Shown here in pieces: positions 4,251-23,059 of a stretch of DNA of 33,601 nucleotides; position 1 is the first letter of the stretch; the number at the start of each line of letters is the position of its first letter. A program made the translations under genes and the position numbers. The notes under the pieces are model-generated. The model worked only from the letters and a program-made list of their open reading frames with translations. It was not told the DNA's origin and made no database searches. Source of the DNA: Gemmatimonadota bacterium (GTDB lineage Bacteria; Gemmatimonadota; Gemmatimonadetes; Longimicrobiales; Gaopeijiaceae); contig SKSR01000216.1 of NCBI GenBank assembly GCA_007122885.1, forward strand, positions 1 to 33,601, read 5' to 3'.

Positions 4251-5063
4251 GTGTGTCGAATGGTGGGATACCTGGGCCCGGCCCGCTCCCCGGCCGACCT
4301 CCTCTTCCACGGGACACACTCCCTGGAGCACCAGAGCCACAGCCCCCGAGAGCTCCTCCACGGCACGGTCAATGTGGACGGCTACGGGGTCGCCTGGTAT
4401 CCCGAGGACCCTCCCGGGGCCGGTGCGCCCGTAAGAATCGCCGAAGCTCGTCCCATCTGGCACGACCCCGACCTGGAGCCGCTTCTCCGGACGGTGCGAG
4501 CACGTGCCGCATTGGCCGCGATCCGGAACACGACCCCCGGCATCCCGACGGACCGAACCGGGGTGGCGCCCCTCACATCGGGACCGTGGGCCTTCGTGCT
4601 CAACGGATTCATCCAGGACTTTCGGCGAACGCTCATGCGGCCGCTCCACTCCCTCCTCCCGAACCCGGTCTACCAGCAGCTTCAGGGAGGTTCGGACACG
4701 GAAGCCCTCTTCCTCCTCTTGCAGACGGGCCTCCGAGAAGGGCTGAGCCTTTCCGAGGCCACGGCCAGGGTGGTCCACCGAACGCTCGAATTGGGTGACG
4801 GAGAAGGGCTCGAGATTCAACTGAACATGCTTACCTGCGACGGACGAACCCTCGTGGCCACCCGGGCGGGAACGGAAGAAGAACAGAACTCCCTGTACGT
4901 TCGCAATTCCGGCTTCTCGGAAGGCGATGGTGGGTTCATCGTGGCATCCGAAGCGCTGGACGACGAATCGGGTTGGCAGCCGGTGCCCCCGGGAACGCTG
5001 GTGACCTCAACCCTGGACGGTGGAGCCCGGATCGAGCCCCTGGCCTCCATCGACGACGGCTGA
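4251..5063 (+). CDS. egtC: Class II glutamine amidotransferase, EgtC-like (gamma-glutamyl hercynylcysteine sulfoxide hydrolase)
   Basis: GTG start followed directly by the catalytic Cys (M-C-R-M-V-G-Y-L-G); GYGVAWY, ALAAIRNTTPG, FVLNGFIQDFRRTL, GGSDTEALFLLL; adjacent to egtA/D/B. Confidence 0.85.
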   Translation: MCRMVGYLGPARSPADLLFHGTHSLEHQSHSPRELLHGTVNVDGYGVAWYPEDPPGAGAPVRIAEARPIWHDPDLEPLLRTVRARAALAAIRNTTPGIPTDRTGVAPLTSGPWAFVLNGFIQDFRRTLMRPLHSLLPNPVYQQLQGGSDTEALFLLLQTGLREGLSLSEATARVVHRTLELGDGEGLEIQLNMLTCDGRTLVATRAGTEEEQNSLYVRNSGFSEGDGGFIVASEALDDESGWQPVPPGTLVTSTLDGGARIEPLASIDDG

Positions 5064-6344
5064 GTCCGAGCTCTCGGTCGTCCCCCCCCCTCGCTGATCG
5101 GAGGTGGCGTCCCAGCCGTCCCGACCCCTTGCCGTGTACCTGGCTGCGAACTCCCGGGCCACCTCCAGCGATGCCCCGTCGACCACATCCGGCAGATCCG
5201 CGGCACCCTCCAGGGCCAATCCCCACACCTCCTCGGCCAGGGCTGCGAGCTCCGGGTCCTCCATCCCGGCCCGGCCCGCCCGGGCCATCAGGTCATCGGA
5301 AGGAGCCGGAAGGAGGTCCTGTGCTCGCGCTCGCGCCTCCGGGTGGTATAGGACGCCCACCAGGAACACGAGGGGCGCCGCCAGTAGCTCCGGGGGAAGT
5401 GCGTCCACCGAGCGAAGTTCCAGGTACCCTCGTGGCCGAACCTCCGGGAAGAGGGTAGTGAGATGGGCTCGCCAATCGTCCAGGTCCGCCCTCCCCTCCT
5501 CCACGACCTCCCGGAAGGAGGGAGGAGGTGAGCTTTCCGAGAGGAGGAAGGCCGGGGCGTCCAATGCGGCTTCGAGGTAACGAGCCACCGGGTCCCCTTC
5601 CCTGGCCCACCAGATTCCGGTGCGACCAGGATCCAGGTGCCGCCACTGATGGGCCCTGTAGTTCCGGTGACCCGTTTCGGTCCCCTCGTGCATTCTGGAG
5701 TTGGCGAACACCGCCGTCGTGATGGGAGCCAGGGCGTTGGCCAGCGCCCACTGGGTCGGCCAGGGGTCCACCCAATCCAGGTTCACGTGAACCGCCGCCG
5801 TCTGCCGCATCATCCGGCGACCCCAAGGGCCGATCCTGGAAAGGTGCCGGTCCATCCGGAGGTAGCGCTCGCCATGAACCTGCAGGCTGGCCTCCTCCTT
5901 CCGCGTGAGCGGATCCATTCCACGGTAGATCAGTCGGATCCCCCGCTCCTGCGCCTCCCTATCCAGCTCGGTCAGATCCCTGTGGGCACGCTCCAGGAGC
6001 TCCCACACTCCGGCCGATGGGGTGGAGACCCACTCCACCTGACCGCCCGGCTCGAAAGCGATCCGGTCGCCGCTCTCGGTCCGAAACCCGGGAATCGATT
6101 CGGAGGACGTGTCCTGCCAGCGCCGCTTGTCCGCGAGGGCTCGGACCGCGTCGAGGGTTCCCCGCCCGTCGGTCGAGACCAGGTCGGCGGCTCCGTGGCG
6201 CTCCAGGTCGAGGGCCAACGCTTCCACCTCGACTCCGACTCTCAGTCGGCCGGAATCGGGTTCGACACAAGCCTCCCTTCCCCCGGGAAAAGCCACTTCC
6301 CGAAGGTGCGCGGCCAACGCCTCGGGTATCAGGCCTCCAGCCAC
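5007..6344 (-). CDS. egtA: Glutamate-cysteine ligase family protein, EgtA-like
   Basis: RVGVEVEALALD, FEPGGQVEWVSTPS, TAAVHVNLDW, NSRMHEGTETGHRNYRAHQW, HLTTLFPEVRPRGYLELRSVDALP; 16-bp overlap with egtD. Confidence 0.87.
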   Translation of the reverse strand: MAGGLIPEALAAHLREVAFPGGREACVEPDSGRLRVGVEVEALALDLERHGAADLVSTDGRGTLDAVRALADKRRWQDTSSESIPGFRTESGDRIAFEPGGQVEWVSTPSAGVWELLERAHRDLTELDREAQERGIRLIYRGMDPLTRKEEASLQVHGERYLRMDRHLSRIGPWGRRMMRQTAAVHVNLDWVDPWPTQWALANALAPITTAVFANSRMHEGTETGHRNYRAHQWRHLDPGRTGIWWAREGDPVARYLEAALDAPAFLLSESSPPPSFREVVEEGRADLDDWRAHLTTLFPEVRPRGYLELRSVDALPPELLAAPLVFLVGVLYHPEARARAQDLLPAPSDDLMARAGRAGMEDPELAALAEEVWGLALEGAADLPDVVDGASLEVAREFAARYTARGRDGWDATSDQRGGGTTESSDSAVVDGGQGLDPGSTVQG

Positions 6345-7303
6345 TCCCCGTCCGTCTCCGCCAGAACGAGTGCGAAGCGCTCAGCCTCGTCCGGCTGCCA
6401 GGTTTCCAACCGGAAGCCGGCCCGCTCCAGGAAACCCTCGATGGTGGAGCGGTCGTACTTGGAGCTGATCTCGGTCCGGATCTCCTCCCCTTCGGCCACG
6501 GAGATCGTCCCCCCATCGGGAACGCGTACCTGCTGATCCTCCAGCGCCACGAGTCCGATCTCCATCCGACCGTGCTCCGGGTTGTAGCGGGCTCGATGCT
6601 CGAAGGCATCGGGGCGGAAGTTCGTCCGCAGTCGCCGATTCAGTACGTGGAGGATGTTCCGGTTGAACTCCGCGGTTACCCCTCGCGAGTCGTTGTAGGC
6701 CGCCTCCAAGTCGTCCACGCTCTTCCCGGGGCCCGGGCGCAGGTCGATCCCCAGCAACAGACGGTCCCCGTCGACCATCTCCCCACGAATCCGACGAAGG
6801 AGGGTCTCGGCCTGTTCCGGATAGAAGTTGCCCAGAGTGCTTCCCAGGAGGAGAAAGAGCGCGGGTCGTGGGAGATCGCCCTGGAGGACCAGGGACGAGG
6901 TCATGTCACGAGCCTGCGGCCGGATCTCCAGGGACGGATAGTCCGCACGAAGCTCCTGGGCCACCCGCATCAGGAACTCCTCGCTCACGTCCACGGGCAC
7001 GAACAAGCCCCCTCCCCCCCCGTCCCTCAGAGCGTCCAGGGCCACACGAGTCTTCCTGGAGCTCCCGGCGCCCAACTCCACCAGGGTCCTCGGAGCCAGT
7101 TCCGCAATCCATCCCGGGACCCACCGAACCAGGAGTTCCTCTTCCGCTCGAGTCAGGTAGTATTCCGGGAGACGGGTGATCTCCTCAAAGAGCTCGGACC
7201 CGCGTTCATCGTAGAAATACTTGGGCGACAGCTCCTTGCGTGCTCCCGAAAGGCCCTGGAGCACCTCCTCCCGCATGGACAGTGTGCCCACCGCATCGCT
7301 CAT
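6329..7303 (-). CDS. egtD: L-histidine N-alpha-methyltransferase
   Basis: MSDAVGTLSMREEVLQGLSGARKELSPKYFYDERGSELFEEITRLPEYYLTRAEEELL...ELGAGSSRKTRVALDAL...LLGSTLGNFYPEQAETLLRRI...VTAEFNRNILHVLNRRLRTNF; start at 7303 with ATGA overlap to egtB. Confidence 0.95.
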   Translation of the reverse strand: MSDAVGTLSMREEVLQGLSGARKELSPKYFYDERGSELFEEITRLPEYYLTRAEEELLVRWVPGWIAELAPRTLVELGAGSSRKTRVALDALRDGGGGGLFVPVDVSEEFLMRVAQELRADYPSLEIRPQARDMTSSLVLQGDLPRPALFLLLGSTLGNFYPEQAETLLRRIRGEMVDGDRLLLGIDLRPGPGKSVDDLEAAYNDSRGVTAEFNRNILHVLNRRLRTNFRPDAFEHRARYNPEHGRMEIGLVALEDQQVRVPDGGTISVAEGEEIRTEISSKYDRSTIEGFLERAGFRLETWQPDEAERFALVLAETDGEWLEA

Positions 7304-8631
7304 GCCCCACCTCCCAGTGCACAACGAAAGCCCGAGAAGATCTGCCGACGGACGGGGAAATCCCAGTTCCGGAAGGTTCCCCTCACGGCACCCGGCCGAC
7401 TGGCCCAGGAGCCTCCCCTGAGAACCTTGTACTCGGTACCGAAGAAGACCTGGGAGTACTCGGGGTACGGGAAGCTTTCGAACCCCGGATACCCCTGAAA
7501 ATCCGACGCCGTCCATTCCCAGACGTCCCCGATCATCCCATAGCACCCCACGGGCGAGACGTTCCCGGGGAAGCTCCCCACCGGAGCGGTCCCGAAGGCC
7601 ATCATGTCCACGTTCGCCCGAGTCGGATCCGGCGGCTCCTCTCCCCAGGGATAGGCTCGCTTTTCCCCCTGCTCCGGGTCCCACGTGGCGGCAGCCTCCC
7701 ACTCCACCTCCGTGGGCAGACGCTTGCCGGCGAACCGGGCGAACGCCTCCGCCTCATGATAGGTAACGTGGCACACAGGGCGGATAGGATCCACGTCCTC
7801 CCACCGATCGAAGCTTCGAACTTCCCACCGGCCGTCCCGCCTTCTCCAATAGCCCGGGCTCTCCACGTCGCTCTTCTGAAGCCACTTCCATCCTTCCGCA
7901 GACCAGAGCTTCGGATTCGAGTATCCCCCTGCGTCCATGAACTCGAGATACTGACCGTTCGTCACCGGTGCCGCGTCGATGGAGAAGGGCTCCACCTCCG
8001 TGGAATGCCGTGGACGCTCGTTGTCGTAGACCGTCGATCGGTCATCGGATCCGATTTCCACCATGCCCCCCGGGAACCGAACCATGGAACCGATCCGGTC
8101 CGCCCAGCCGGCATCGGGTTCCGGGAGGGCCAGGGCCCGGGGTGCCGGATACGGCTCCCCCTTCTTCAGTTGGAGCGTCTGAAGGATCGTCTCGTCGTGC
8201 TGGTACTCGTGCTGCAGGACGAGGCGAAAGACGAATCCATCCTTCAGCAGGGGATCGTCGTCCCTGGGCCCCAGGCGATCCTTCCGGGCCAGGACTTCCC
8301 TCCGCACCCGCCCCATGTACTCCAGTGCCTCGGCGACCGAGGGGAGCTCCAACCGATCCCGGGACGCGCGAGGGTTGTCGAAAGGGTTGTAGATCCCTCG
8401 GAGACCTTCCGATCCATCGGGGCCCGTTCCGGTCTTTTCCAGTAGCCAGACCTCTTCGAAGTGGGCGATGTGGCCCAGGTCCCACACGATGGGGCTCATG
8501 AGGGAGGAGTGCTGCACGGCCAGGTCGGCCTCCGGGAGGGGCCCGATGAGAAAGAGGGTGCGAACGCGGGCTTCGTCCAGGAGCTGCACACATTCGCGCA
8601 GATCGAGAGGTCGGCCGGGTTTCAAATCCAT
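7300..8631 (-). CDS. egtB: Ergothioneine biosynthesis sulfoxide synthase (DinB_2 + FGE-sulfatase domains)
   Basis: SPIVWDLGHIAHFEEVWLL, VLQHEYQHDETILQTLQ (iron-binding HxxxHxE), CHVTYHEAEAFARFAGKRLPTEVEWEAAA, GNVSPVGCYGMIGDVWEWTASDFQGYPGF, VLRGGSWAS. Confidence 0.95.
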   Translation of the reverse strand: MDLKPGRPLDLRECVQLLDEARVRTLFLIGPLPEADLAVQHSSLMSPIVWDLGHIAHFEEVWLLEKTGTGPDGSEGLRGIYNPFDNPRASRDRLELPSVAEALEYMGRVRREVLARKDRLGPRDDDPLLKDGFVFRLVLQHEYQHDETILQTLQLKKGEPYPAPRALALPEPDAGWADRIGSMVRFPGGMVEIGSDDRSTVYDNERPRHSTEVEPFSIDAAPVTNGQYLEFMDAGGYSNPKLWSAEGWKWLQKSDVESPGYWRRRDGRWEVRSFDRWEDVDPIRPVCHVTYHEAEAFARFAGKRLPTEVEWEAAATWDPEQGEKRAYPWGEEPPDPTRANVDMMAFGTAPVGSFPGNVSPVGCYGMIGDVWEWTASDFQGYPGFESFPYPEYSQVFFGTEYKVLRGGSWASRPGAVRGTFRNWDFPVRRQIFSGFRCALGGGA

Positions 8632-12911: not shown

Positions 12912-15065
12912 ATGTTTGCAGCCGAGGAGCATCACCACCGGGCCGTTCCCACGCGTGCTCTCGTACTTTCCCTGGCGGCCCTGGCGGTCCCAGTGGTGGG
13001 CGCGGTGGCGTTCCCGGAGGTCCTGGGAGAGTTGGGCGCCCTCCTCTGGCTTCTGGCCCTCGTTCCGGCGTTTCTTCTCGCTTACTACCGAGGCTGGCGC
13101 GGGGTGGCCACCGCCCTGGCGCTCGGGATGGCCACCCTCTCCCTCACGCAGGTGGCCGTCATCCTTCTGGATCGACAGGTCCCCGAGATCCTTCTCGGCG
13201 TGGTGGTGGCCTATCTCGGTATCTCCCTCGGGATCGGGTGGGTAACCGAGCTCCTCCATCGGGAGAGGGCCACCGTCGAGGATCTGGCCCTCACCGATAT
13301 CCTTACGCGTCTTCCGAACCGCCGTCATGCCCGCATGGCCCTGGAGAACGAGTTCGGCGCCGCAGAGCGGGGACGGCTGCTGTCCGTGGTCCTCTTCGAC
13401 CTGGACGACTTCAAGGCGTACAACGACCGCTACGGCCACGCCGCGGGGGACCAGGCCCTGAAGGCCTTCGGCGAGATCCTGACGCAGACGACCCGCCGGA
13501 TGAACCTCTCGGCCCGCTTCGGTGGGGAGGAGTTCCTCTCCATCCTCTCGGGCTCGGATACGGAAGGAGCCATGGTATTCGCCGAGCGGGTCCGGGACGC
13601 TCTGCGACAATACAGGCTTCCCCACGGCCCCCTCACGGTGAGCGCCGGAGTGGCCGCATACCATCCCAGCATGCGTTCGCCCGACGAGCTGCTCGGAGCG
13701 GCGGACCACGCCCTCTATCGGGCCAAGAGCGAAGGCAGGAACTGTGTCCGGGCGTTCGGGCGCCCGGTGGACGACGTGCCGGGGAAGGAAGAGGGCCAGG
13801 ACGAGGGCATCAAGAAGGAGGAGCCGGAGGGGGAGTATCCTCGCCCCCCCGACGAGATGGGGCGATCGGCGCCTCCCACCACGCTCCTCCCCCACAAGAT
13901 CACCCAGTTCGGGCAGGGGAAGCGTGTCCTCCTGGTGGAGGATGAGCCACCGGTGCGAACGTTGATCTCCACCTACCTGAACCGAGAAGGTTTTCATGTG
14001 ACCGAGGTGGGAGACGTACGCCAGGCGGTGAAGGCCCTCGCCCGGGAGTTCGACGTGGTGATCACGGACATCCGCCTTCCCGATTCCAGCGGCAACGAGC
14101 TCGTGGGAGTCGTGAAGTCCCGCTGGCCACACACCCAGGTGATCGTGATCACTGGACACAGGGATGCCCAGATCGCCGCGGAAGCCCTGAACGCAGGTGC
14201 CGACCGCTATCTCTTCAAACCGTTCGGAATGCCCGAGCTCCAGTCCCACCTCTCTGACGCACTCGTTCGCCGAAGCCGGTCCCTGAGAGACCGAGCCGAA
14301 CGCATCCAGCTGGACGGGGAGGCAAAGAAGCGCGCGGAGGAGGCCCGTGAAGCGATCTTGAAGGGGGCGCGCGCCCTGGTGAAGGCTGTGGAGGTCCGAG
14401 ACCCCTACACCCGGGGCCACTCCCGGAGGGTCGGCGCGTATTCCCTCATTCTGGCGGAGCATGGAGGCTTCGACGAAGAAGAGCTCGACCGGGAGGCCCT
14501 TCGACTGGCGTGCGAACTGCACGATGTGGGCAAGATCGGCATCCCCGACGCGATCTTGAACAAAGCCGCCCCTCTCAGCGCGAACGAGTTCGTGGAGGTG
14601 AAGCACCACCCCAAGGTCGGCCGGAGCATTCTGGAGCCCCTGCTGGGAGACGACCTCGTGTTGTCGGTGACCCAATGGCATCACGAGCGCTGGGATGGCA
14701 CGGGTTACCCCGACGGACTCGCCGGCGACTCCATTCCGCTGGCGGCTCGGCTGGTGGCGGTGGCCGACACATTGGACGCCATGACCAGCACCCGCGCCTA
14801 CCGACCCGCGGTGCCGTGGGAGGACGCGGTGGCAACGATCGAGGAACTGGCCGGAGCCCAGTTCGACCCTGAGATGGTGGCGACCTTTCGCAAGGCCCTT
14901 CCGGATTTGGATGACGCGTTCCGGGAGGCGGGAAGGAACGGCCCGACCGAAGACGGTCGGGGTTCGAGAGAGAACGAATGGATCGACGAACCGCGGGTTG
15001 GAGGCGGACGGTGGGCTACCGACCACGACGGACAGGGAACGCACGACGAGAGGGGGGAGTCATGA
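12912..15065 (+). CDS. Membrane GGDEF - response receiver - HD-GYP triple-domain c-di-GMP protein
   Basis: N-terminal hydrophobic helices; DILTRLPNRR...FDLDDFKAYNDRYGHAAGDQAL...ARFGGEEFLSIL (GGDEF); RVLLVEDEPPVR...VVITDIRLPDSSG...YLFKPFGM (REC); HDVGKIGIPDAIL...HHPKVG...HHERWDGTGYPDGLAGDSIPLAARLVAVADTLDAMTSTRAYR (HD-GYP). Confidence 0.95.
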   Translation: MFAAEEHHHRAVPTRALVLSLAALAVPVVGAVAFPEVLGELGALLWLLALVPAFLLAYYRGWRGVATALALGMATLSLTQVAVILLDRQVPEILLGVVVAYLGISLGIGWVTELLHRERATVEDLALTDILTRLPNRRHARMALENEFGAAERGRLLSVVLFDLDDFKAYNDRYGHAAGDQALKAFGEILTQTTRRMNLSARFGGEEFLSILSGSDTEGAMVFAERVRDALRQYRLPHGPLTVSAGVAAYHPSMRSPDELLGAADHALYRAKSEGRNCVRAFGRPVDDVPGKEEGQDEGIKKEEPEGEYPRPPDEMGRSAPPTTLLPHKITQFGQGKRVLLVEDEPPVRTLISTYLNREGFHVTEVGDVRQAVKALAREFDVVITDIRLPDSSGNELVGVVKSRWPHTQVIVITGHRDAQIAAEALNAGADRYLFKPFGMPELQSHLSDALVRRSRSLRDRAERIQLDGEAKKRAEEAREAILKGARALVKAVEVRDPYTRGHSRRVGAYSLILAEHGGFDEEELDREALRLACELHDVGKIGIPDAILNKAAPLSANEFVEVKHHPKVGRSILEPLLGDDLVLSVTQWHHERWDGTGYPDGLAGDSIPLAARLVAVADTLDAMTSTRAYRPAVPWEDAVATIEELAGAQFDPEMVATFRKALPDLDDAFREAGRNGPTEDGRGSRENEWIDEPRVGGGRWATDHDGQGTHDERGES

Positions 15066-16371: not shown

Positions 16372-17649
16372 TCAGGATTCGTCGGCGCCCCCCGGTTGAG
16401 CCTCGTGCTCCACGGGAAGGGCCTGCCCACTCTCGTCGCCCACCGCCCCTACGTCGTCCGGCCCGGAGCCCTTGCCCAGGCGCAGGGGTTCGGTCTCGTC
16501 CTCCAGTTGGGCCAACCTGGGGCCCCATCGCTCCATCATGTCGCAAAAGGCCCGGGCCAGGTGGGGATCGAACTCGGTCCCTGCCCCTTCCCGGATGTAG
16601 TCGAGGACCCGGTCCTGCTCCCAAGCCGACCGGTACGGTCGGTGTGTGCGCAGGGCGTCGTAGACGTCGCAGACGTGGACCAGGTTGCTACATTGGTGGC
16701 AATGGCGAGGGAAAGCGAAGCGGGGATAGCCACCACCATCCAGGCGGATGTGGTGCTCGTAGGCTACCACGGCGGCCAGATCGAGATGTTCGTCGGTCTC
16801 GATGATGAGCTTGGCCCCCTCCACCGTGTGGCTGTTCATCACCTCCCGCTCCTCGTCGGTGAGCTTCCCGGGCTTGTTCAAAATCTCCTCCGGGATGCGG
16901 GTCTTACCGAGATCGTGGAGCAGGCCCGAGATGCCGAAGGTCTTCACCTCCTTGGGGGACAAGCCGATATGTTCGGCCAGAGCCATGGAGAGGACCGAAA
17001 CGTTCAGGGAGTGCGTGGTCGTGTATTGGTCGAACTCCTTGAGCTGCAGGAGGGGAATGACGAACTCCTGGTCTCCATGCATGGCCACGGAGAGGGACCG
17101 GACGATCGCCTCGGCTTCCAGTAGGTGCAGGTCCCTGCCCTCCTTCAGCTCCTCGTGTATCCACCGGACCGCCTCCACCTCCTCCTGGAGGGAGTAATCC
17201 AGCGTGGCCATGGCCAGGTCCTCCAGATCCTCTCCTTCCTCGCCGTCCCTCCGGATATCGGCCCGACCATAGCGGATGTTCGTTTCCCGGGTCGGGCGGG
17301 CCTCGGCGCTGCTGACCGGCCGATCGGTGAGGAGAGCCAGCACGTCGTCCAGGAATCCCTCCAGCTCTTCCCGGGAGACGGGTCCGGTGAACTCGAGCAT
17401 CTGGAGGCCCGCGTCGGCCAATTGGGTCGCCCAGTCCCACCCCTTGAGATCCCAGAGCGGCCGGTCCTCGTGGAGGATTTCCCCCCCTAGAAAGGTGAAG
17501 CGGGGTTTCGGCTCCACGTTCTGGAGGTCCACGAGCCGTTCGTAGGCCGTGTCCAGAGCCCGCTCCCGGGCCGGATGCTCCTCCTCGTAGAGGTGCATGG
17601 TGGAAACCGCCTGGGCCATGGACGTGAGGAAACGAGCGGCCGAGTTCAC
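16372..17649 (-). CDS. HD-GYP domain protein with N-terminal 'YxxxHP' domain
   Basis: GLLHDLGKTRIPEEILNKPGKLTDEEREVMNSHTVEGAKLI, AYEHHIRLDGGGYPRF, LVHVCDVYDALRTHRPYR; N-terminus FLTSMAQAVSTMHLYEEEHPARERALDTAYERL. Confidence 0.92.
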   Translation of the reverse strand: MNSAARFLTSMAQAVSTMHLYEEEHPARERALDTAYERLVDLQNVEPKPRFTFLGGEILHEDRPLWDLKGWDWATQLADAGLQMLEFTGPVSREELEGFLDDVLALLTDRPVSSAEARPTRETNIRYGRADIRRDGEEGEDLEDLAMATLDYSLQEEVEAVRWIHEELKEGRDLHLLEAEAIVRSLSVAMHGDQEFVIPLLQLKEFDQYTTTHSLNVSVLSMALAEHIGLSPKEVKTFGISGLLHDLGKTRIPEEILNKPGKLTDEEREVMNSHTVEGAKLIIETDEHLDLAAVVAYEHHIRLDGGGYPRFAFPRHCHQCSNLVHVCDVYDALRTHRPYRSAWEQDRVLDYIREGAGTEFDPHLARAFCDMMERWGPRLAQLEDETEPLRLGKGSGPDDVGAVGDESGQALPVEHEAQPGGADES

Positions 17650-19784
17650 TGAACCTCCTGGGTCGAAGTCACGGCGGCGAGAATCTGCACATCCGAGGAC
17701 TTCCGGGCCAGTTGGAGGATGGGTTCGGCCTTGGGATGATCCGCCCAGCGCTCCGAGAGGGCCTTCAAAGCCGAGACGAGCTCGGGTGACTTGGGGGCCA
17801 GGCGGCGGCGGCCGAGGACGCTTCGTCCGCCGTCGCAGATTTCCAGAAGAGCATCCAACGCCAGGGGGACCCGGCTCGTGCCGATGGCCCGTACGGCCAG
17901 GGATCGAAGGGCAGACAGAGCATCGTTGCGGAGCACCCGGTTCACGACCACCGGAACGAGCGCATCCCCGATCCCATCCTGAAGCTCCAGAAGCGCCATC
18001 CGAACGATCCGTTCGTCCGAATCGCCCAAGGCCTGAGCCAACGCCCGTTGACGTCCCCCAGGGTCCCGGAACGCCAGCGGGAAGGCCTCCCGCCGCACCC
18101 TTGGGTCCGAGTGACCCAGATGCTCGGTGGGATCGAATCCTTCCGGAAGTTCCTCCAGCCGGTGCAACAGGGCGAGGATGTTGCGGCGGACGTACCAGCG
18201 GGAGTCGTCGAGCCGGTCCAGAGCATGTTCCACCATTCGGGGGCCCAGCTCGGCGATGCAGTCGAAGACCTTCCGCCGGACGGACCGGTATTCCGATTCG
18301 ATCAAGATCTCGAAAAGCGGTGCGATGGCCTGATCGCCCAAGCGGTCCACGAGCTGCCGGAGGGACTCCCGGTCCACATCTTCTCCCGACAGGAGCCGTC
18401 GAAGCTGATGGGGGGTGGCGAGCTGCCGTCGGAGCCGTTCGGCCACCTGACTTCCCTCTGAGGCCCGGTCGGCCAACGCCAACACCCGGGAAACGCCTCC
18501 GGCATCCACCAGGTCCGCTACCGCCTTGTGCAGCGTCGGTCCTTCGGCGTCCACCTCCAGGGCCATCTGGACGATCCGTTCCGCCCCCTCCAAGCCCTCG
18601 TCCCCTTCCTCCGTTCCTGAAAGGACAGGAGCGGCCCGGGCCATCTGATCCAGGACCCGCGTGTACTGGTCCGGGTTGGGGTCCTCCAGCTCCCAGTCCG
18701 AGATGAGCTCCTCCACATTCTCCAGGAGGGCGTTCGTCGCCTGTGCCCTCAGGTGGCGGGGCCCGGTCTCGGAATGGGCGGCCAGCTTCGAGAGCATCCG
18801 GGTCAGCGACGTGGAGATGTTCTGTCCGGATGCTTCCGCGCCGGCCCGAAGGATCTTGACCACCGCGTCCACCGGAAGTCCCTGCGCGGCGTCCATCAGA
18901 AACTTCTTTCGCTGGGTGAAACTCCCTCCCATTCGAACCAGGCGAGCCAAGGCATCCGGGTCCAGCTCCTCCACCAGGGCTGCCAGTCGCCGCCGGATCT
19001 CCTCGGCTTCTTCACCTTCCGCGTCCCGGAGCTCCTCCGCCAACTGGCGAAGGTAGTCGACGATGACTTCTTCGTATGCACCATCCTTGGCCCTGCGCCC
19101 CAGCCGGCGAGCCAGGGCCCGGGCATCCAGGTTTCCCTCGCTCACCTCCTCCTCGTCGGCCAGGGCAGCTTGCGCCATGTTCAACCAGAGCTTTCCGGCC
19201 TTCGAGCCCCCCTCACCGAAGTCCGCCTCCTTCATGTTCAGGCGGTCGTAGTCCACCGGATGAAGGCGGATGTGCGTCCACCCCGGGCGCTCGCCCTCGG
19301 CCATGAGACCGATGGGCTCGCCCCCTCGCTCCGGGTCCTGAGCCAGAGTTCGCAAGAGCTCACGAACCTCCCGTAGGCTGGCACCTCGCTGGAACGAGAT
19401 CGCACCGATCTGGTGGCTGTGAAGCCGGTGTGCCAGATCGCTCAGGACCGGATGGCGCGGGTCGGTGGCCACCCCCTCGATGACCAGTTGCCGTTGGGCT
19501 ACGCCGATGGCCAGGCTCTTCCGGTCGGAAAAGAGGGTGGAAAGGCCCTCGATCACGTTCTCAGCAGCCGGAACGAGGGAAGGGTGATCCCCCGGATACA
19601 TGGCGTGTCGGTGGACGGCGATGGACAGCTCGATGAGAAACTCGGAAAGATCCCGAGAGAGAGCCGCCTTCTCCCCTCCCTTGGATGCAGCCAGACGTTC
19701 GGTCACCGTATCAGCCGTCCACTCCTCGAGTCCGTTCGGCCCATGTCCGGAAACCCTGGAATCTCCGACACCGCCCCCCCGCAC
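17646..19784 (-). CDS. HEAT-repeat protein with N-terminal 'YxxxHP' domain
   Basis: C-terminal HEAT-like repeats (SVRRKVFDCIAELGPRMVEHALDRLDDSRWYVRRNILALLHRL, DPRVRREAFPLAFRD, DERIVRMALLELQDGIGDALVPVVVNRVL); N-terminus FLIELSIAVHRHAMYPGDHPSLVPAAENVIEGL; ATGA coupled to the HD-GYP gene. Confidence 0.8.
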   Translation of the reverse strand: MRGGGVGDSRVSGHGPNGLEEWTADTVTERLAASKGGEKAALSRDLSEFLIELSIAVHRHAMYPGDHPSLVPAAENVIEGLSTLFSDRKSLAIGVAQRQLVIEGVATDPRHPVLSDLAHRLHSHQIGAISFQRGASLREVRELLRTLAQDPERGGEPIGLMAEGERPGWTHIRLHPVDYDRLNMKEADFGEGGSKAGKLWLNMAQAALADEEEVSEGNLDARALARRLGRRAKDGAYEEVIVDYLRQLAEELRDAEGEEAEEIRRRLAALVEELDPDALARLVRMGGSFTQRKKFLMDAAQGLPVDAVVKILRAGAEASGQNISTSLTRMLSKLAAHSETGPRHLRAQATNALLENVEELISDWELEDPNPDQYTRVLDQMARAAPVLSGTEEGDEGLEGAERIVQMALEVDAEGPTLHKAVADLVDAGGVSRVLALADRASEGSQVAERLRRQLATPHQLRRLLSGEDVDRESLRQLVDRLGDQAIAPLFEILIESEYRSVRRKVFDCIAELGPRMVEHALDRLDDSRWYVRRNILALLHRLEELPEGFDPTEHLGHSDPRVRREAFPLAFRDPGGRQRALAQALGDSDERIVRMALLELQDGIGDALVPVVVNRVLRNDALSALRSLAVRAIGTSRVPLALDALLEICDGGRSVLGRRRLAPKSPELVSALKALSERWADHPKAEPILQLARKSSDVQILAAVTSTQEVQ

Positions 19785-19820: not shown

Positions 19821-22352
19821 TCATCCATCGTTTTCACCCCGGACGATGACGGAGGGCGGATGACGGAGAAAAGAAAGGGTCGCCAGCCACCCGGAAACCA
19901 TCACCAAGGCCACGCATGCCCCGGTCAACAACGCCAGACGGAATCCTGGAAAAGCCACCGGCACCTGAAACTGGAGGACGAGGAGAAGAACGGCCCCACA
20001 CGTACCCAATACCACGCCGGCCACTCCTGCGGTAGCTCCCAGGGCTCCGTACTCCCACGCCAGGAACGTTCGGAGCTGTGCCCGGCCTGCGCCCAGCGTA
20101 CGGAGCAATGCGATCTCCCGGGCCTTACGTCGCCGACGGGAAAGCACGACCGCCATCAGGACGACGGTCCCTATCAAGGCGGTGAAGAGGGACAAGCCCA
20201 GGACGGCCAACCCGATCCTGGAGCTCCAGAGGGTGAGCTCCTCCCGGAGCTGAGCGAAGTCCAGCACGGCCACCCCGGGGACCTCGGAGACGAGTCGGCC
20301 TTGGAGTCTGCCCCGTTCCCCCGAGTCCGGCACGTGGACGGCGGTGGCATACGTGGCTGGGGCCCCTTCGAGTGCGCCAGGTTCGAAGACCACAAAGAAG
20401 TTGGGCTCGAAACGGGCCCAATCCACCGAGCGAATGTTGGCCACTTCCGTGACCACGGGGACCCCCTGCACGTCCCAGACGATGGAATCTCCCATTCGGA
20501 TTCCCAGATCCATGGCCAAGCCCTGTTCCACCGAGATCCGGGTGGTACCATCCCCACCTCCCTCCTCCCACCATTCACCTCGAACCACCTCCTCCCCGGG
20601 GGCCAACTCCAGCCGATACGTATTCCGGTACGTTCGACGAAGCGTCCAACCGGGGATTCCCACCGATGGATCGTCCAATAGGTCGGAAACCTCCCTCCCC
20701 CGGAAGCGGGCGATCCTCGCCGAAACAATGGGAGTAAACGACGGCGCCGCACCCGTACCCCCCTCCAGGATCTCCCCAACACGTTCGCGCTGATCGGACT
20801 GGACGTCGAATATGAAGAGGTTCGCGTCACCTCCCGTTTCCTCCATAAGAAGGCGTTCCAGAAAGCTCCGCTCCACGACGGCGGCCGCTGCCAGCAGGGA
20901 GATTCCACACCCGAGCGCCAGCACCACCACTCCCGTCTGATTCCCGGGTCGAAATAGCGAAGAAAGGCCATGGCGCCGAGGGAAGGATGCATCCTCACCC
21001 AGCGTGGCTCGAGCGGTCATCGACAACGCCCTTGCCATGGCGAGGAGGAGGGCACACAGAACGAGGAACCCGAAGCCGTACCACAGGCCGGTGGACAGAT
21101 CGGGCGCCTTCGCGATCGCTCCGGCGAATACGGCGCCGACAAAGACCGCAGCGACTCCCGCCCAACTTCCTCCTCCCGCCCCCTCCTCCACCTCCCGGCG
21201 AAAAACCTGGAGGGGCGAGATCCCCCGGACCTGAGCCAGGGGGGCGACCGAGAACACCAGCCCGAAGGCAAGGCCCACGGCCACCCCGGAAAGTACGGCA
21301 CCCACATGGAGAGCCGGGGCGATGGTAAGATCCAGGATCGCGGAGAGGCCCGCGGCGCCCGCGTGCTGCACCCCCACCCCCAGCAGCGCGCCCGCCGCGC
21401 TTCCCACCATGGCCAGAACCAACGACTGGAGGACGAAGGCGCCCATCACGTCTCGTTCCCGGGCGCCGAGGCAACGCAGAACCGCCAGGCGCGACACCTT
21501 GTCTTCCACTCGGCCGTGTGTGGCGCTGGCGACCCCGATGCCCCCCAGGAGGAGGGCGGCCAGCCCCACGAGGGCGAGGAAATCCCCGAAGAACCCCACA
21601 CCCTCCACCAACGTCTCCGCCCGCTCCTCCGCCGAACGAATGGAAAGCCCTTCGGTGCTCAGCCGGTCCCGTAGCCGGTGGGCCAGTGCGGTTCCACCCT
21701 CCCCGTCGGGTGTCCGGAGATCCACCCGCCTCTGGGCCACGGTCCCGAACCCCAAGAGCCCCATGGCTTCCAGGTCGCCTTCGGACACGAAGATCCTGGC
21801 ACCCATGAGGCCCCGGAGACCTAGCTCCGCCGGCAGCCCCTCCACCTCCCCCACGATGCGGACCGGAGCCTCGCCCACCCGCACCGTGTCTCCGACCTCG
21901 GTCTCCATCTGGGCCGCGGCTTGCGGTTCCAGGAGGGCGGTACCGCCTGCGAGCCGGGACCAGCTCCCCTCAGGATCGTCCCGGGGCGACCCGTAGAGAG
22001 GATACTCCGGGGACACGGCCACCACCTGGAGGAACCGGGACATGTCGGATCCGGAATGGTAGACGGATGTGCCCAATGCGGTGGAGCGCGCCACGCGAAC
22101 CCCCTCGGCCGCCAAAGAGTCCACAACGGCCAGCGCCTCCTCCGTAAATGGCGCGCTGCTCGAAATCCGGACGTCGGCCCCGAGGAGATCTCTCCCCTGC
22201 ACGGAAATCCCTTCCTCCACATCCTGCTGCAGGGAGGAAAGGGCCACGAGACCCGCCACGCCCAGGGCCAGGGCCATGAGATGGACTCGGGAGCGACGCA
22301 GTTCCGTCCGCCCATCCCGCCACGCGAACCGGAAGGTGAACGGGCGGATCAA
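19821..22352 (-). CDS. ABC transporter permease, FtsX/YbbP-like (MacB-type superfamily)
   Basis: 843 aa; N-terminal TM then SLQQDVEEGISVQGRDLLGADVRISSSAPF; repeated FtsX permease segments (FGDFLALVGLAALLLGGIGVASATHGRVEDKVSRLAVLRCLGARERDVM; LGLSLFTALIGTVVLMAVVLSRRRRKAREIALLRTLGAGRAQLRTFLAWEYGALG). Confidence 0.92.
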   Translation of the reverse strand: MIRPFTFRFAWRDGRTELRRSRVHLMALALGVAGLVALSSLQQDVEEGISVQGRDLLGADVRISSSAPFTEEALAVVDSLAAEGVRVARSTALGTSVYHSGSDMSRFLQVVAVSPEYPLYGSPRDDPEGSWSRLAGGTALLEPQAAAQMETEVGDTVRVGEAPVRIVGEVEGLPAELGLRGLMGARIFVSEGDLEAMGLLGFGTVAQRRVDLRTPDGEGGTALAHRLRDRLSTEGLSIRSAEERAETLVEGVGFFGDFLALVGLAALLLGGIGVASATHGRVEDKVSRLAVLRCLGARERDVMGAFVLQSLVLAMVGSAAGALLGVGVQHAGAAGLSAILDLTIAPALHVGAVLSGVAVGLAFGLVFSVAPLAQVRGISPLQVFRREVEEGAGGGSWAGVAAVFVGAVFAGAIAKAPDLSTGLWYGFGFLVLCALLLAMARALSMTARATLGEDASFPRRHGLSSLFRPGNQTGVVVLALGCGISLLAAAAVVERSFLERLLMEETGGDANLFIFDVQSDQRERVGEILEGGTGAAPSFTPIVSARIARFRGREVSDLLDDPSVGIPGWTLRRTYRNTYRLELAPGEEVVRGEWWEEGGGDGTTRISVEQGLAMDLGIRMGDSIVWDVQGVPVVTEVANIRSVDWARFEPNFFVVFEPGALEGAPATYATAVHVPDSGERGRLQGRLVSEVPGVAVLDFAQLREELTLWSSRIGLAVLGLSLFTALIGTVVLMAVVLSRRRRKAREIALLRTLGAGRAQLRTFLAWEYGALGATAGVAGVVLGTCGAVLLLVLQFQVPVAFPGFRLALLTGACVALVMVSGWLATLSFLRHPPSVIVRGENDG

Positions 22353-23059
22353 TCCCCTCCCCCCTCCCCGGCCTCGGGAGCCAGCGTGCCGCCTCTGAGC
22401 CGCACGATCCTGTCGGCCCGCTCGGCCAAACTGAGATCGTGCGTCACCAGAACCAACGTGGTTCCCCTCTCCCGGTTCAGGGTCTGGAGAAGGGAAGCCA
22501 CATGACTTCCCGTCTCGTCGTCCAGATTGCCCGTCGGTTCGTCGGCCAGGAGGATCGCCGGATCGCTGGAAAACGCCCGGGCCAATCCCACGCGCTGCTG
22601 CTCGCCTCCGGAAAGTTGAGCCGGGTAGTGGTCCATTCGGTCGGCCAGCCCCACCCGGCTCATGAGCTCGCGGGCCCGCCGTCGAGGCCGCTCGCCGGTC
22701 TCACCTTGGAGCTCGAGAGGGACCATGACGTTTTCCAGGGCCGTCAGAGAGGAGATGAGCTGGAAGGTCTGGAAGACGAAGCCCATCCTCCGGACCCGAA
22801 ACTCGGCTCTCTGGTCCTCGGTAAGAGAGGCGAGGTCGTGCCCTTCGACCTTGACGACGCCCTGGCTCGGAACATCCAGACCGGCGAGAAGTCCCAGAAG
22901 GGTCGTCTTCCCGCTCCCGGACGGACCCACGATGGCGATGAACTCTCCAGGCGACACGGAAAGATCGATTCCGTTGAGCACGGCAACGGCTCGATGCCCA
23001 CGCCCGTACCTCATGGCGAGGCCGTGGGCCTCGATGGCCGGAGTCGCCGCGGTCCTCAC
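22349..23059 (-). CDS. ABC transporter ATP-binding protein (LolD/YbbA-like)
   Basis: [20 protein letters not shown] (Walker A), [16 protein letters not shown] (signature), [16 protein letters not shown] (Walker B); ATGA overlap with permease. Confidence 0.95.

Follow-up and report, generated by a model that had tools for sequence, protein, structure and literature searches.

An N-terminal domain shared by adjacent HEAT-repeat and HD-GYP proteins in Gemmatimonadota

PmGH of Persephonella marina (PDB 4mcw) is an HD-GYP enzyme whose dimer relies on an N-terminal GAF domain together with a linker helix (PMC4159591). Regulation of an HD-GYP protein through contact with other proteins is represented by RpfG and its GGDEF protein partners (PMC4159591), and V-cGAP3 (PDB 5z7c) is a 3'3'-cGAMP phosphodiesterase of the HD-GYP fold class. 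HD-GYP enzymes are common, and the control of most of them is unexplained.

We analysed a window of 33,601 nucleotides, contig C79 in the draft genome of a Gemmatimonadota bacterium, which carries on its minus strand a gene for an HD-GYP protein paired with a gene for a HEAT-repeat protein. Like PmGH, the HD-GYP protein has the metal ligands H, HD, H, HH and D, the lysine and the GYP motif, and an N-terminal domain, which we term ND, is placed where PmGH has its GAF domain. Unlike in PmGH, this N-terminal domain is not detectably GAF, the position of E185 is occupied by tyrosine, and the HEAT partner carries the same domain. The pair resembles RpfG and its partners in the regulation by protein contact that we predict here and in the presence of GGDEF genes nearby in some relatives; however, the HD-GYP protein has no receiver domain, and its partner is a HEAT solenoid that also carries the ND. 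The similarity to V-cGAP3 (E 2.9e-20) is confined to the HD-GYP domain, and substrate preference is not readable from the window sequence. The partner protein has a HEAT-type solenoid at its C-terminus, as do bacterial HEAT-repeat proteins in general (Pfam HEAT_2), but differs from the others in carrying the ND and in being tied to an HD-GYP partner gene. The HD-GYP enzyme class is already known; neither the ND nor its fixed HEAT partner is described in the domain libraries or literature searched, and literature searches on HD-GYP with HEAT repeat, on Gemmatimonas, on c-di-GMP in Gemmatimonadetes and on the trp operon found nothing on the pair. A fixed partner with the same undescribed domain provides a direct handle on the control of such enzymes.

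Both open reading frames lie on the minus strand at the positions given by a first-pass annotation of this DNA. The ND-HD-GYP gene (16372..17649, minus strand) encodes 425 aa from a GTG start, and the start residue is the same in homologues. The ND-HEAT gene (17646..19706, minus strand) most likely begins at the GTG at 19706, giving a protein of 686 aa, and homologues begin with VTES or LTES there. The first-pass annotation had extended this gene to 19784, and the frame is indeed open as far as a GTG at that position (712 aa), but the longer version is doubtful because the closest homologues begin at the residue matching the GTG at 19706, which is probably the start of the protein. An ATGA overlap had also been reported at 17646-17649; a 4-base overlap is present at this place, but its sequence is GTGA (minus strand), with the HEAT gene ending ...GTT CAG TGA and the HD-GYP gene beginning GTG AAC TCG. 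A Shine-Dalgarno-like AGGAGG for the HD-GYP gene (17654..17659, minus strand) lies inside the HEAT gene near its 3' end, and 4 nt separate it from the GTG. Our preferred reading, to which we assign a probability of about 0.6, is that an ND-mediated complex of the HEAT and HD-GYP proteins controls a cyclic-dinucleotide phosphodiesterase and that the two genes form one signalling module; we infer both the complex and the substrate from sequence.

Conservation of the gene pair

We sampled 77 ND-HD-GYP genes, of which 76 are distinct (L012 and L046 denote one locus). In 77/77 the gene immediately upstream, on the same strand, encodes a HEAT-type partner, and the ND was detected in all of these partners except that of L158. 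The two genes overlap by 4 bases in 58/77 pairs, the window being counted with its corrected start. A survey of co-occurrence, as had been suggested for the pair, gave an independent count from two domain searches: 71 of 150 Gemmatimonadota genomes have both window-type genes, in equal copy numbers. The Fisher value for this co-occurrence takes no account of phylogeny. No genome clearly holding just one of the window-type genes was found among these 150, and the two apparent HD-only genomes are explained by a stretch of N in G002 and by the start of a contig in G048. G118, a genome of the same family, contains a 74-residue ND-HEAT fragment flanked by two conserved genes, for an aminotransferase and FtsX, and has no ND-HD gene, which suggests that both genes of the pair were lost jointly.

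The genome that carries the window also has a second, paralogous ND-HEAT/ND-HD-GYP pair, on contig C179 (L044:2399-5637), in the order trpF-trpB-(ND-HEAT)-(ND-HD-GYP)-trpA. Across Gemmatimonadota, 22/28 sampled loci that are not of the window type sit between trpB and trpA (L044, L160-L162, L164-L169, L177, L179-L182 and L186-L192), a position through which cyclic-dinucleotide turnover might be linked to a housekeeping operon in a little-studied phylum. Four further loci (L178, L183, L184 and L185) adjoin lexA, and the stretch fetched there contains no trp genes, which looks like loss or relocation of those genes with the pair left in place.

In Hydrogenedentota, ND matches were detected in 6/68 genomes, and in 5 of these an HD-GYP gene adjoins a HEAT gene. 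The pairing rule is thereby seen in three lineages: the window type, the trp-operon type and Hydrogenedentota. The ND was found in 0/200 Bacteroidota genomes, in a search run without a positive control, and plasmids searched for the ND pair gave nothing relevant. N-terminally extended HD-GYP proteins of similar appearance occur elsewhere. The near-obligate adjacency and the co-occurrence in three lineages strongly suggest, at the level of gene content and order, that the two proteins constitute a co-assembling signalling module. At one locus (L163:6732-9205) the gene that overlaps an ND-HEAT gene encodes a MoxR-type AAA ATPase and not an HD-GYP protein; the ND may be associated with HEAT proteins more widely.

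The HD-GYP active site

The HD-GYP domain (16537..17037, minus strand; residues about 205-371; Pfam HD_5 E 2e-22) aligns to PmGH 4mcw with E 4e-33. The PmGH metal ligands H189, H221, D222, H250, H276, H277 and D305 correspond to H213, H245, D246, H274, H299, H300 and D328, residues D183, K225 and D308 correspond to D207, K249 and D331, and the GYP motif is formed by G307, Y308 and P309. In PmGH, alanine at the metal ligands, D183, K225 or D308 abolishes or strongly reduces activity (PMC4159591). Among the 77 homologues, H213, H245, D246, H274, H299 and H300 are invariant or nearly so, K249 is present in 69/77, D328 in 71/77 and the GYP motif in 77/77, and the metal-ligand set in the window is complete. 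The signature region HHExxDGxGYP reads HHIRLDGGGYP in the window, retaining all but the Glu after HH. Because the active-site residues are almost always intact, the window enzyme is probably active, and its earlier description as a c-di-GMP phosphodiesterase-type enzyme is borne out at the level of active-site residues by their conservation and by the PmGH alignment.

The glutamate of the trinuclear site (E185 in PmGH) is absent. Its position is taken by Tyr209 in the window and by tyrosine in 59/60 type-A proteins, and a two-metal site is therefore more likely. This tyrosine marks a subfamily and, by analogy with PmGH, in which the E185A variant still hydrolyses c-di-GMP (PMC4159591), the glutamate would not be required for phosphodiesterase activity. 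The HD-GYP domain is predicted to hydrolyse c-di-GMP or a related cyclic dinucleotide at a two-metal site.

In six sampled enzymes (L085, L086, L088-L090 and L171) D328 and K249 are both lost, L089 being also without H213, and in L074 H245 and K249 are changed. Judged by these residues, the HD-GYP partners at all of these loci are probably inactive, and the HEAT/HD-GYP pair is kept in every one of them despite the metal-site losses. Since the pair persists where metal-site residues are lost, catalysis is not the sole function retained. This persistence favours an alternative in which the HD-GYP protein is mainly a cyclic-dinucleotide-responsive switch or adaptor of the trigger type, with hydrolysis secondary and the HEAT protein as its output, and the tyrosine at the E185 position, which makes a full trinuclear site unlikely, points in the same direction. 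However, the catalytic residues are kept in most homologues, and we consider such a switch a possible but rather unlikely account of the pair.

An alpha/beta domain at the N-terminus of both proteins

The ND comprises residues 1-134 of the HD-GYP protein (17248..17649, minus strand), with the motif LYxxxHP, and residues 40-190 of the HEAT protein as numbered in the 712-aa frame (19215..19667, minus strand), with the motif YPxxHP. The first-pass annotation had aligned the two N-termini by eye and proposed a common domain. BLASTP of the full HEAT against the full HD-GYP protein found no similarity, so this alignment needed profiles. We built these from 60 homologues of each protein, the majority found in Gemmatimonadota genomes. 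When HD residues 1-135 were compared with HEAT residues 40-190 in HHalign, the probability was 98.9 (E 1.8e-17, score 101.7, 131 columns); on reduced alignments E was 1.4e-17, and the 131-133 aligned columns span the whole domain. As controls we compared four further segments of the HEAT protein and three of the HD protein, reversed a profile and permuted the columns 100 times; none of these exceeded 3.3% probability or a score of 19.4. The HEAT-ND profile also matched the HD N-terminus directly in many genomes, with E 2e-7 for one relative and E 1.5e-5 for the window itself. Profile alignment, the check that had been named for the by-eye claim, could have returned no similarity; it returned significant similarity, and the common domain was confirmed.

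Structure predictions, built from 3-6 sequences each, gave the same picture for both proteins. AlphaFold2 modelled the HEAT ND with pLDDT 86.9 and pTM 0.82 (H5-23, H31-45, E51-57, E60-63, H73-84, E87-93, H98-109, E133-137). The model of the HD-GYP protein, made with 3 HD sequences only, has an overall pLDDT of 50, and residues 1-110 have pLDDT 77-94; the element order H-H-E-E-H-E-H-E predicted from the HD sequences alone is the same as in the HEAT ND. In both, (L)Y-x-x-x-H-P lies close to the end of helix 1 and is followed by helix, hairpin, helix, strand and helix. We conclude that the ND is an alpha/beta domain of about 110-130 aa at the N-terminus of both proteins.

The earlier statement that this region belongs to no recognised named family held: the ND has no confident match in Pfam, NCBIfam or PDB sequences, and Foldseek found no confident fold match in the PDB or among viral models. 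It merits its own family model. A GAF fold was rejected, with no Pfam GAF match at E 0.1 among 76 domains and with support consisting of subthreshold Foldseek matches at TM about 0.2; the best had E 0.06 and TM 0.21, and some were GAF sensor domains (PelD, E 0.06), which are not significant.

The conserved residues of the ND are Tyr, His, Pro and hydrophobic residues, and no ligand-pocket pattern was identified among them. In genus g11 (L095 and L097) the LYxxHP motif has been lost from the ND of the HD protein; this loss, like the MoxR neighbour at L163, counts against our preferred reading. A tree of 126 columns, which cannot decide whether a single split between HEAT and HD domains preceded the divergence of the lineages, places the window-type HEAT and HD domains in separate groups. 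This grouping is consistent with a second alternative, in which each protein uses its ND separately, to sense a ligand or to homodimerise; the pair would have arisen through domain duplication and would stay together because both act in one pathway, with no complex formed. Homodimerisation of PmGH through its N-terminal domain (PMC4159591) offers a precedent, and the nonsignificant GAF sensor matches would fit such a role. However, near-obligate adjacency with equal copy numbers exceeds the usual loose link between members of a pathway, and conserved ND residues without a ligand-pocket pattern argue against a sensor; we therefore judge separate use to be unlikely. That the similarity reflects chance or the composition of two helical regions, as the failed pairwise BLASTP might suggest, is ruled out for practical purposes by the permuted and reversed controls, the whole-domain profile match and the finding that in many genomes the HEAT-ND profile hits HD N-termini directly.

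Proposed module and genomic surroundings

We thus favour the reading in which both genes encode one cytoplasmic two-protein signalling module held together by the ND. The ND would serve as an assembly domain, like the dimerising GAF domain plus linker helix of PmGH, and the HEAT and HD-GYP proteins would be joined through ND-ND pairing. The HEAT-type solenoid (17667..19142, minus strand; residues about 215-706) may bind a target or input protein, setting where or when the enzyme acts. Its Pfam HEAT_2 match in the window has E 9.8e-6, just under the cut-off; HEAT_2 is well above the cut-off in most partner proteins of other lineages, HEAT repeats are found in the partners of all pair types, and the tandem HEAT helical repeats identify the protein as a HEAT-repeat protein. 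Pairwise distances of the two NDs are correlated (r 0.80, the top cross-protein value), which supports pairing weakly because the neighbouring first HEAT segment reaches 0.78 and linkage alone gives high values.

More tentatively, the ND could be a new pairing domain and the ND-HEAT/ND-HD-GYP proteins a distinct class of two-subunit complex for cyclic-dinucleotide signalling, ancient enough to be common to Gemmatimonadota and Hydrogenedentota. One paralogue would have been built into the tryptophan operon and kept next to lexA at loci that lack neighbouring trp genes; the module would, in some lineages, outlive the catalysis of its enzyme.

The gene surroundings support a role in cyclic-dinucleotide signalling: in several relatives, a GGDEF gene is next downstream on the same strand. 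PAS-GGDEF genes lie directly downstream in at least four (L057, L061, L068 and L070), with a 4-base overlap in L057. In the window, one protein encoded at 12912-15065 (plus strand), two genes from the pair, fuses GGDEF, receiver (REC) and HD-GYP domains; in G118, the GGDEF-REC-HD-GYP gene and the pair both look degraded. Upstream of the HEAT gene are genes for an FtsX/MacB-type permease and an ABC ATPase (19821-23059, minus strand), which are kept in close relatives only. An anti-phage defence system was considered and rejected, as the PADLOC matches were all weak, namely HD-superfamily matches to Cas3 models and a single HEAT match. Elsewhere in the window (about 4251-8631) is a putative ergothioneine cluster, with an EgtB-like protein (FGE-sulfatase and DinB_2), an EgtD-like methyltransferase, a GCS2 ligase and a class II glutamine amidotransferase.
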